A stretch of 64,000 nt of DNA from Pseudothermotoga sp. (GTDB lineage Bacteria > Thermotogota > Thermotogae > Thermotogales > DSM-5069): assembly GCA_025060105.1 (NCBI GenBank), contig JANXCS010000004.1:124001-188000 (forward strand), in the 5' to 3' direction. The notes beneath the pieces are model-generated. The model saw nothing but the letters and a program-made list of their open reading frames with translations, was not told the origin of the DNA and searched no databases. A program made the position numbers and the translations under genes. Of this stretch, positions 16,784 through 20,095 are shown piece after piece (position 1 is the first letter of the stretch; the number at the start of each line of letters is the position of its first letter).

Positions 16784-19700
16784 TCAGAATATATCCGCTC
16801 CCACAGAACCCGTGATCGGATCGAACGAAAAACTCTTTTTGGGAAACTCCTTTATGAAAAATTTGAACGACAATTTTTCGAGGCTGAATTTACCAATCGT
16901 TGAAAAACTCGTCTCGAAGACCAGACCCCAACAGTGTAAATCTTTGGACAATGTCAATTCGAGAGAATTGACTGAGAACGGCTTCAACGTGCCTGAAAAG
17001 GAAACCTGGATGCTCGGATCGAAGCTCGAAAGTTCGTAGGAAGCTCTCAATCTGTAAGAACTCTGGGTGTACGCCATGGAAAAGCTATGCCTGGCCGAGC
17101 CAGTGTAGAAAGAACCCTTCGCTTGTACGGTCAAAAGACTTAAAGGTTGCACATTCAAAGTGTAATTCACAGCCAGATCCGGCCTGCTCATGAAAAGAAA
17201 GTTTTGCCCCCTCACGCTCAGCTTGTTTTCTAAGATGTCTACGTGTGGTGTCTTGTCGTATCTGTATGTGAAGCTGGTCTCATGGTTGAATGAACCGTAA
17301 CCCAAATTTATCTTCCAATCCGTTTTGTGGAACTTTTCTTGTTCAATCTGGTAAACTGTTTCGGTGTAGACGGTCCAACGGAAAGAAAAAATGTCGAACG
17401 TGCTGTTGGTCTTGATCAAAAGATCATCCCATTTGTACTGAATCAGATCGTAACCTGTCGAGAATTCCACGCTGCTCGTTGGTATTTTCAAAGTTGTAGA
17501 AAAAGTGGTTTTGGAAAGATCGGAGAAATCAGAGAAACCAGCGTACAGAATGTTGTTCATCGAAGCCCTGTTCTGATAGCCAAGGGAGACAGAAAAGAAA
17601 TCCACAGGTTTCAATGTGAAGTTCGTTATAGTCCGTTGCGATAGAAGATATTCCGCATTTTTTCCGTGAGCCAACCAGAATCCAGCACGGAGGGATGAAT
17701 CGAAGGAAAGATCGAACCATCCTCCGCGCAACAACGCCGTTTTGAAAGGCAGATTCGTATCGAGTTGAAAATAGTTCCTTGAATAATTCTGGGTGATACT
17801 GGTCCCGCTCAACTCATAACTACCACTCAGGGACAGATCGAACTGTTTGAAAACCTCTGGTAGTTTCCACTGCATCCCCACGTCGTATCTGCCAAAGGTG
17901 TAGATCTCATCTAAATGATCGAATAAATTCCCTTCAGAATAACTCACCGAGGAATTGTGCTGCAAAGAATTGATCGTCAACGAAAAAGGATCCTTCGAAA
18001 CGGTGAATTTTTTTATCGATACACTCGGTAAAATCCATCTGGTCGAGGTTCGCGTTCTGTTGACGGAATTTTGTACCACGAAATCTTTCGCAGGATTGAA
18101 AGTTTGCTCGAAAGAGAATCTATCATCGCTGAAATACGCTCTAAGTTTTGAATACAAAGAAGGTATCGATAACACGCCATTCAGTTCGTAATCGAGGCCT
18201 GAAGGTCTTTCCAAGGTGTAACTGCTCATACTCAGTTCCCATTCATTCCTTTTGTAATTCATCGCGAGTTTAGAGTAGTTGCCAGCGTTATCCCCCTTCT
18301 CTCTGTAACCAACGCTCGCCGAGACGGACCCATTCGGGTATGTTACGTTGTAAACACTTTCGAGGTTGAATCCCTCGTTTTTAGAGTAACCAAACTTCAC
18401 TGAGAACGGTTGAGGTCCCTCACTCAAAGAAACGAAGTAGACAGGTAAATAAACTGTTGGAACATTGAATACGAATAGGACCACGTTGTGAGCAACCAAA
18501 TAGTCGTTCTCCTTTATCTCCACGCTGGTCGCCTGCAATCTGTAATGAGGTTCTTCAAGTTCACACGTGGTCAAATAAGACGTTTGAAATTCTCCATAAT
18601 CATCCTTCATGTAGGAAGACTTTGCAGCAAAGAACAGTTGATGCTTGACTTTTTCTTCGTCCGTGAAGAGAGTTTTACCTCTTGGTTGTATGACGAGCGC
18701 GAGTTTTTCAGAAAAAACGTAGTAAAGTTGATGAGCCTTTATTTGTGTGTCTTTCCTGCTGTACAAAACGTTACCCTCAGCGAGAATCTTCTCGGCCTCG
18801 TTCGAATCGTTCAAAAAAATCGTGAGCGTTGAGCATTGGATCACAACGTCTCCATAAGAAACCTCTACAGAACCTGAAACGATTACTTTCCCCTTTTCGA
18901 AACTCATATTGGTAGCCTTGAGTTGCATAGTTGCTGCGTGGCTCTGTGAAAAGAGGAAGATCACGAAGAATATCACCAAAAACCTCGTTAAGAGTTCTCT
19001 CAATCTATAGCTGAGAGGTGTATCGAGGAAAATGAATAAAACAGCTCCTACGAGTCCAAAACCCAGATTTGGCAACCATGCCGCTAGCACTGGATCCATG
19101 AGCCTTTCTTTCCCCATAGCGCTGACCCAAGCACCAGAACCTTGATAGAGAACGACCAATACGAAGGTGATTATGACACCCCAAGATTTGCTCTTCAAAT
19201 TGAACATCAAAGATAATGGGACCCCCACGAGCGCTATTATGATCGGACCGAGAGCGATCGAATAACGAGTGTGGAGTTCCACTATCCAAGGGGCCGGATC
19301 TATACCGAGTTTCTTGAGTGTGTTGATCCTCTCTCTCAGTTCCTCACTCTTCATGTCTCTAGGTGTTTTACCGGTTCTCAAAATGGACTCTATATCTTGT
19401 TTGAGGTCCAGTTCCACCTTCGAAAAATTCACATCGAGCCTCAGAAAACCTTCTTTATCCACTTTGTACATGCGTCCATCGTACATGAACCATTTGTTTC
19501 CTTCTTTGGTGACACGACGCGCCGTGATTATTTCCTCTTCGGCAGGATCGTTTCTGAAAAGAACTACGTTCTCCAATACGCCGTTTTGCCTGTCATACTT
19601 TTTCACATAAAAATACTGATTATCGTCCACCTTGGTCAGAACGTTCTCACTGATGAAAACTTCTGGCTTTCTGTAAACATACTTTGAGAGTACTTGATCT

Positions 19701-20095
19701 GCCTTCTGGTTGAACTCCGGTACCACCCTATCGTTCAAAAGATAAGCTACACAGCTGAGTATCACACCGAGAAGAAGAAAAGGAACGATCAACACTTTCA
19801 ACGAGATGCCGTGCACCTGCATAGCCATCAACTCTCTGTCACTGGAAAGCTTTGAAAGGACCCAGAACACGGCGAGCAGTATCCCAACAGGTACACCGAG
19901 GGCTGTGAAGTAAGGTAGATAATAGTATAAGATCCTGAGAAGCACGAAGAAACTCACCCTGTGCCTCACGATCAAATCTGACAATTGGTAGAGTATCTCC
20001 ACGCTGACGAAGACGATGAAACCTCCAAGACCTATCAACAGAGGACCCAAAGAGAGTCTGAATAAATATTTAATCAGTATCGTCAAAAAGGACAC
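16784..20095 (-). CDS. LptF/LptG-type permease fused to an LptA/LptD (OstA)-like periplasmic and beta-barrel part
   Basis: A single frame of 1103 codons. Residues 1-360 look like an LptF/LptG (YjgP/YjgQ) permease: three N-terminal membrane helices (about 13-35, 50-80, 100-120), a periplasmic jellyroll region, and three C-terminal helices (about 278-298, 305-325, 340-358). A seventh hydrophobic segment, RFLVIFFVIFLFSQSHAA (371-388), looks like a signal peptide with an SHA cleavage site. Residues 390-500 resemble OstA/LptA (GKVIVSGSVEVSYGDVVIQC, AEGNVLY). The remaining 600 residues are alternating beta-strand sequence ending in Phe, like LptD or other outer-membrane barrels. A TTG at 20086, 6 nt after GAAGGTG, may be the true start. 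This would link inner-membrane extraction and outer-membrane insertion of a lipid or glycolipid in one polypeptide. Confidence 0.8.
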   Translation of the reverse strand: MSFLTILIKYLFRLSLGPLLIGLGGFIVFVSVEILYQLSDLIVRHRVSFFVLLRILYYYLPYFTALGVPVGILLAVFWVLSKLSSDRELMAMQVHGISLKVLIVPFLLLGVILSCVAYLLNDRVVPEFNQKADQVLSKYVYRKPEVFISENVLTKVDDNQYFYVKKYDRQNGVLENVVLFRNDPAEEEIITARRVTKEGNKWFMYDGRMYKVDKEGFLRLDVNFSKVELDLKQDIESILRTGKTPRDMKSEELRERINTLKKLGIDPAPWIVELHTRYSIALGPIIIALVGVPLSLMFNLKSKSWGVIITFVLVVLYQGSGAWVSAMGKERLMDPVLAAWLPNLGFGLVGAVLFIFLDTPLSYRLRELLTRFLVIFFVIFLFSQSHAATMQLKATNMSFEKGKVIVSGSVEVSYGDVVIQCSTLTIFLNDSNEAEKILAEGNVLYSRKDTQIKAHQLYYVFSEKLALVIQPRGKTLFTDEEKVKHQLFFAAKSSYMKDDYGEFQTSYLTTCELEEPHYRLQATSVEIKENDYLVAHNVVLFVFNVPTVYLPVYFVSLSEGPQPFSVKFGYSKNEGFNLESVYNVTYPNGSVSASVGYREKGDNAGNYSKLAMNYKRNEWELSMSSYTLERPSGLDYELNGVLSIPSLYSKLRAYFSDDRFSFEQTFNPAKDFVVQNSVNRTRTSTRWILPSVSIKKFTVSKDPFSLTINSLQHNSSVSYSEGNLFDHLDEIYTFGRYDVGMQWKLPEVFKQFDLSLSGSYELSGTSITQNYSRNYFQLDTNLPFKTALLRGGWFDLSFDSSLRAGFWLAHGKNAEYLLSQRTITNFTLKPVDFFSVSLGYQNRASMNNILYAGFSDFSDLSKTTFSTTLKIPTSSVEFSTGYDLIQYKWDDLLIKTNSTFDIFSFRWTVYTETVYQIEQEKFHKTDWKINLGYGSFNHETSFTYRYDKTPHVDILENKLSVRGQNFLFMSRPDLAVNYTLNVQPLSLLTVQAKGSFYTGSARHSFSMAYTQSSYRLRASYELSSFDPSIQVSFSGTLKPFSVNSLELTLSKDLHCWGLVFETSFSTIGKFSLEKLSFKFFIKEFPKKSFSFDPITGSVGADIF

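Follow-up and report, generated by a model that had tools for sequence, protein, structure and literature searches.

In the window, the 64,000-nucleotide stretch of Pseudothermotoga sp. DNA analysed here, one gene encodes a complete LptF/LptG-type permease, followed by a short hydrophobic segment and then by a full-length LptD. It is considered likely that the product is a polyprotein, which would be cut by signal peptidase I into a permease, probably homodimeric, and a free LptD exporting a glycolipid other than LPS.

Architecture of the fused gene

The frame runs without interruption on the minus strand from 20095 to 16784 and comprises 1103 codons, which confirms the single frame given in a preliminary description of the sequence and adds its strand (Table 1). 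It shares 26 bases with the end of a PhoU-like gene. Since the spacing of the Shine-Dalgarno-like GGGGAAGG suits the TTG at 20086, this codon may be the start instead of the GTG at 20095, resulting in a protein shorter by three residues. The hydropathy of the product shows seven peaks, and in a fold comparison of a full-length model one half matches LptD and the other half LptG/LptF.

Table 1. Features of the fused gene, with positions in the window.
Feature	Position	Strand	Basis
Whole fused gene: LptF/G permease, putative internal signal peptide and LptD	16784..20095	minus	1103 codons; start GTG 20095 or TTG 20086
LptF/LptG-type permease, residues 1-360, six TM helices	19016..20095	minus	Pfam PF03739; LptF/LptG structures by sequence and by fold
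Periplasmic beta domain between TM3 and TM4, residues 148-229, in the place of the LptF/G jellyroll	19409..19654	minus	AlphaFold secondary structure
Putative internal signal peptide, residues 365-387: LRELLTR n-region, FLVIFFVIFLF h-region, SQSHA c-region	18935..19003	minus	Sequence, hydropathy, alignment columns, natural split L146
Predicted cleavage site of signal peptidase I, A387/A388	18934..18935	minus	Small residue at 387; Bipolaricaulota sites
LptD N-terminal jellyroll (OstA domain), residues 388-556	18428..18934	minus	Pfam, profile matches, AlphaFold
LptD signature TTC...PHY...P..YLP..F, residues 509-563, with Cys511	18407..18571	minus	Invariant residues; signature recurs in stand-alone LptDs from other phyla
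LptD beta barrel, residues 557-1103, terminal Phe	16787..18427	minus	AlphaFold all-beta; best Foldseek matches all LptD
LHCW motif, residues 1053-1056, with Cys1055	16928..16939	minus	Likely long-range disulphide partner of Cys511

The six-helix LptF/LptG-type permease recognised before was confirmed by the Pfam model LptF_LptG (PF03739), which covers residues 9-354 with an E of 8.5e-83 and 278.7 bits compared to a gathering score of 27.9. Hydropathy, AlphaFold and the fold matches (6mjp_G, 6mit_G and 8frl_G) agree on six transmembrane helices, with TM3 and TM4 flanking a periplasmic beta domain. Since the permease reached 157.6 of 230 bits for the NCBIfam LptF equivalog and 146.5 of 240 bits for the LptG equivalog, and was thus below both cut-offs, it can be assigned to the family but not to LptF or LptG in the strict sense. 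It is the single PF03739 protein of the window's genome and, as the only copy, probably forms a homodimer.

For the second half, a profile was made of residues 389-1103 aligned with 35 relatives. Compared to the PDB, this profile matched best the LptD of Neisseria gonorrhoeae (7omm, E=4.5e-8) and the LptD 8h1r (5.5e-7), with the cysteine of the TTC motif aligned on the T-C of LptD. The AlphaFold model of the same residues is all-beta with a pLDDT of 86.6 and a pTM of 0.61, and the chain ends in ...DIF. In Foldseek, the best 29 matches of this model in the PDB were all LptD, with E down to 3e-21. Since the TM-scores were modest (0.34-0.50 over full-length entries) and the pTM was 0.61, the closure of the barrel and the number of its strands are unreliable. 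The residues C511, Y518, P546, P551 and P563 are invariant in the 36 sequences. Cys1055 is present in most members, while some have no C-terminal cysteine (LHHW, LHKW), and the LptD halves of Bipolaricaulota contain four cysteines. A long-range disulphide between Cys511 and Cys1055 is likely. A signal-peptide-like segment precedes this half, which would be located in the outer membrane.

Pfam models captured the LptD half incompletely. LptD_N gave a weak match at residues 396-451, and PF03968 (OstA) matched 20 of the 36 members at an E of 1 or below (best 2e-8), the member of the window lying 0.2 bits below the cut-off. The Pfam model of the LptD barrel, PF04453, matched in none of 103 Thermotogota genomes. 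Since it matched in only 2 of 14 control genomes compared to 6 of 14 for LptD_N, PF04453 is a narrow model, and it gave way to the profile made here for the barrel searches. With this profile, separate LptD-like frames were found across other phyla, comprising about 680-750 amino acids and the same TTC...PHY and LHCW cysteines. Altogether, the profile matches to solved LptDs, the AlphaFold model with LptD as its 29 best matches and the two conserved cysteines common to stand-alone LptDs identify residues 388-1103 as a full-length LptD with a predicted jellyroll, the TTC...PHY signature, a large barrel and a terminal Phe. The LptA/LptD-like beta part ending in Phe of the preliminary description is accordingly LptD itself, while LptA is encoded by a separate gene.

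The LptD half varies in length. In family f9 (Kosmotogaceae/Mesotoga-like; L046, L047, L053, L066 and L067) it is enlarged, with a total of 1434-1494 amino acids compared to about 1100 elsewhere. Four further loci (L040, L050, L058 and L061) contain about 70-80 extra residues between the signal peptide and the TTC motif, perhaps a second jellyroll, and in L044 and L065 a Pro/Thr-rich linker of about 45 residues follows immediately after the predicted cut site.

The joint between the two halves

The seventh hydrophobic segment with an SHA end, as described before, was found again as a hydropathy peak at residues 365-383 ahead of S385-H386-A387. After TM6, the positively charged RLRELLTR leads into a hydrophobic core, which is short and is followed by a small residue. 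The predicted cut site (marked by a slash) reads SHA/AT in the window and VFS/, GFS/, VYA/ or AFG/ in relatives. Column 387 is small in 34 of the 35 sequences with a residue there (S17, A9, G7, C1, P1), and only 14 of the 1039 columns are of this kind; the -2 position is mostly aromatic and the -3 position mostly small or aliphatic. The genome's own N-terminal signal peptides are alike at the cut site (LSFA/Q, LLFS/QQ, SFG/KT), and compared to their mean uncharged run of 17.5 residues the joint is short with a mean of 15.6. In Bipolaricaulota, the joint comprises textbook sites (AWA/QEPPP, AHA/QD), and some segments hold a charged residue, which a membrane helix would avoid. The AlphaFold confidence is the lowest of the chain at residues 375-388 (below 50), and the first beta strand starts about three residues past the predicted cut site.

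Column statistics were used in place of a c-region weight matrix built on 19 signal peptides of this genome. With the matrix, the joint did not stand out from the remaining helices of the protein (mean best score of 5.7 compared to 5.5 for TM3), since any hydrophobic run is rewarded. Judged by its residues and alignment columns, the joint resembles an internal signal peptide more than a stable helix, and signal peptidase I would cut after A387. The resemblance to a signal peptide and the small residue at 387 support the precursor cut by signal peptidase that had been proposed at the outset.

A separate LptD gene is present in four genomes. In UR.bin268 (L146), the permease ends in ...EPLKRLLG and a stop, and four bases further on, in another frame, LptD starts with MHLRYKSFSPVLFIISLFFIILSGTKVFS/ATAY. 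This LptD carries an N-terminal signal peptide (MHLRYKSF...KVFS/AT) in place of the internal one, and a simple frameshift in sequencing would not readily account for the additional charged n-region. In G005 (L136 and L043), LptF, LptG and LptD are three genes, and LptD again has its own signal peptide. The LptD of G005 forms a sister branch to the fused LptD of the family to which this genome belongs (100/100), and the LptF/LptG pair of G005 also groups with this family, on long branches (98/87 and 99/96). Since both trees place the genes with their own family, contamination is unlikely and a secondary fission with duplication of the permease is most likely. The same genome encodes a 603-amino-acid LptA-like protein (L077:6294-8105), which contains several OstA-type repeats in tandem and may be a covalent LptA chain. 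In two Bipolaricaulota loci (L212 and L213), permease and LptD are adjacent separate genes. Since such natural splits exist, LptD can work without a covalent link.

Alternatively, the seventh segment could stay in the inner membrane, taking over the helix-plus-jellyroll job of LptC, with one chain running from the permease to the outer-membrane barrel. This would fit the lack of a separate LptC in the window's genome, the length of the joint, which overlaps the lengths of TM5 and TM6, and the retention of the fusion over two phyla. It is nevertheless unlikely in view of the conserved small -1 residue, the textbook cut sites in Bipolaricaulota, the conserved separate LptA and the four genomes with LptD as its own gene. 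Moreover, with only about three residues between the segment and the first strand, a single jellyroll of about 5 nm would need to reach across a periplasm traversed by the long coiled-coil stalk of Omp-alpha, which makes a covalent bridge less likely. According to its title, Engel 1992 describes Omp-alpha as spanning the periplasm of T. maritima. The covalent bridge between inner and outer membrane, offered in the preliminary description besides the cleaved precursor, is therefore not favoured. That the chain remains uncut and couples pump and exit covalently, at least where both membranes are closely apposed, is rather improbable.

Free LptD could also originate from internal initiation just upstream of the signal peptide, either exclusively or together with the fusion. 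Although an in-frame ATG, GTG or TTG occurs in the stretch upstream of the signal peptide in 29 of 38 genes, the start positions are not conserved and a Shine-Dalgarno-like site is present in only 4 of the 38, and this origin is hardly to be expected. Cleavage of a polyprotein by signal peptidase I thus remains the preferred reading of the joint.

Distribution and origin of the fusion

The permease was found in 100 of 103 Thermotogota genomes, and in about 86 of these 100 it belongs to a single fused frame of at least 1054 amino acids. The exceptions are mostly contig ends or frameshifts, with two true splits. Since the single frame is kept this widely, the fusion is not a sequencing accident, and a frameshift or misassembly as its cause is ruled out. 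In four genomes that are otherwise well assembled (L156 of G044, L157 of G078, L158 of G093 and L211 of Marinitoga lauensis LG1), single stops or frameshifts, due either to sequencing error or to real decay, interrupt the fused gene.

Among named genomes, the fusion was observed in Pseudothermotoga, Thermosipho, Fervidobacterium, Mesoaciditoga, Kosmotogaceae and Athalassotoga saccharophila, and the same scan unexpectedly showed it in Candidatus Bipolaricaulota/Acetothermia. The eight Bipolaricaulota genomes first checked contain one permease each. In a sample of 100 Bipolaricaulota genomes the permease was present in 91, about 76 of them with frames of at least 950 amino acids. The 28 loci of this phylum that were read comprise 23 confirmed permease-LptD fusions, two pairs of adjacent separate genes and two loci cut by contig ends, while in L214 LptD is absent within the stretch read. 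The Thermotogales setting suggested before thus holds insofar as the fusion is widespread in Thermotogota, but since it also occurs in Bipolaricaulota it is not a speciality of Thermotogales.

In the permease tree, Thermotogota and Bipolaricaulota form sister clades (100/98) and are separated from the sampled permeases without a fusion. Since the two are sisters, one fusion event or one transfer would be the simplest reading, and the fusion probably arose once. Outside both phyla, no fusion was found among the matches listed in the domain-wide samples. A 1269-amino-acid frame of G170 proved to be a false candidate, consisting of a GC-rich extension upstream of the permease, and the LptD frames of more than 1000 amino acids in L137-L140 hold no permease. 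In G179, a genome of another phylum, LptA-like, permease and LptD genes are packed in a row. Here (L135:1528-5393) and in G114 (L140:1735-6203), the permease lies directly upstream of a separate LptD gene with an overlapping frame, an arrangement which is a likely precursor of the fusion.

Partner genes, cargo and known systems

The genes of Omp85, LptB and one LptA-like protein are located in other parts of the genome than the fused gene. LptB (G000:C3:156454-157146) scored above the NCBIfam equivalog cut-off, and all 31 genomes searched contain an LptB above the curated cut-off. The separate LptA-like protein comprises 206 amino acids with its own signal peptide, and its gene, located between SerS and an SLH/coiled-coil protein, is conserved. 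Omp85 was found in 26 of the 31 genomes, including that of the window. Of the two partners named in the preliminary description, LptB is thus present, while a separate LptC was not found in the window's genome, where the LptC model matched only the LptA-like protein. In all LptB loci read (L076:3973-5150; L071-L074, L087-L089), the gene immediately ahead of LptB encodes a Skp/OmpH-like chaperone; this conserved pair links outer-membrane protein folding with lipid export. The LptA-like gene at L075:4409-7598 (also L078 and L086) adjoins genes for SerS, an SLH/coiled-coil (Omp-alpha-like) protein and a PEGA-repeat protein.

LpxC of lipid A synthesis was found in none of the 103 Thermotogota genomes, in agreement with PMC5007114. 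In the control genome of Thermotoga maritima, PF03739, PF03968, PF06835 and Omp85 were matched and LpxC was not. Since lipid A synthesis is missing, the cargo must be a lipid other than LPS, most likely a membrane glycolipid, and in Thermotogota the system works like Lpt but not for LPS. The export of a lipid to the toga, as first suggested, is supported. A glycolipid cargo is proposed for LPS-less Lpt systems in a passage of PMC10353723 that names T. maritima; for the Lpt orthologues of this species, Putker 2015 is cited there.

The absence of LpxC, together with the fast divergence of the barrel sequence (mean column identity of 20%), could also be explained by a barrel half that is a vestige or a different porin without a role in lipid export. 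Since the LptD signature residues are invariant across the phylum, LptB and LptA are kept and the fold matches LptD first and not porins, this explanation is very unlikely.

For the favoured polyprotein, the following course can be assumed. Residues 1-360 would be inserted as the permease and pair as a homodimer driven by the separately encoded LptB, while the segment 365-387, acting as internal signal peptide, would thread the remaining chain into the periplasm. Cleavage after A387 by signal peptidase I would release an LptD of 716 residues, which chaperones, among them the Skp-like protein encoded beside LptB, would carry to the BamA/Omp85 machine for insertion into the outer membrane of the toga. 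The separate LptA-like protein would then bridge permease and LptD, and a lipid other than lipid A, most likely a membrane glycolipid, would be exported.

A survey from 2022 described Thermotogae as lacking nearly all outer-membrane genes except bamA and the toga as a protein layer replacing the outer membrane (PMC8871954). Contradicting this survey, our data show that an apparently complete Lpt route is retained in Thermotogota in the absence of the lipid A pathway, and that the annotation as a permease has concealed its LptD. In the literature searched, whose coverage does not extend to the key review by Putker et al. 2015, no report of a permease-LptD fusion was found; the fused architecture is probably already displayed in domain databases. 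The lipid of the toga and its delivery route are now directly testable. The fusion would represent a polyprotein of bacteria from which signal peptidase produces one protein of the inner and one of the outer membrane, and its occurrence in two phyla with grouping permeases bears on the history of the outer membrane in deep-branching bacteria.

Compared to the Lpt systems of the LPS-less diderms Borrelia and Thermus, the system described here likewise comprises an Lpt machine without LPS and a glycolipid as proposed cargo (PMC10353723), while the passages of that paper on Thermotoga do not mention a permease-LptD fusion. Diderm Firmicutes also possess a single LptF/G homologue, and thus one permease gene instead of two, but LPS is made there and LptD was not found (PMC5007114). 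With LptF and LptG of the LptB2FG transporters of E. coli, Klebsiella, Pseudomonas and Vibrio, the permease shares the full-length PF03739 domain, the six transmembrane helices and the periplasmic beta domain; it differs in being a single genomic copy, probably homodimeric, whose chain runs on into LptD and whose cargo cannot be lipid A-based LPS. The LptD (Imp/OstA) of proteobacteria and other phyla has in common with the second half the jellyroll and large barrel, the TTC signature, the long-range cysteine pair and the top Foldseek matches, whereas here LptD has neither its own gene nor a start codon, its signal peptide lies inside a larger protein and it falls below detection by PF04453. 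A similar case is FbcH of Bradyrhizobium, a cytochrome b/c1 polyprotein. Although its proteins are unrelated to LptF/G and LptD, it likewise combines a membrane protein and an exported protein in one chain, which is split at an internal signal sequence.
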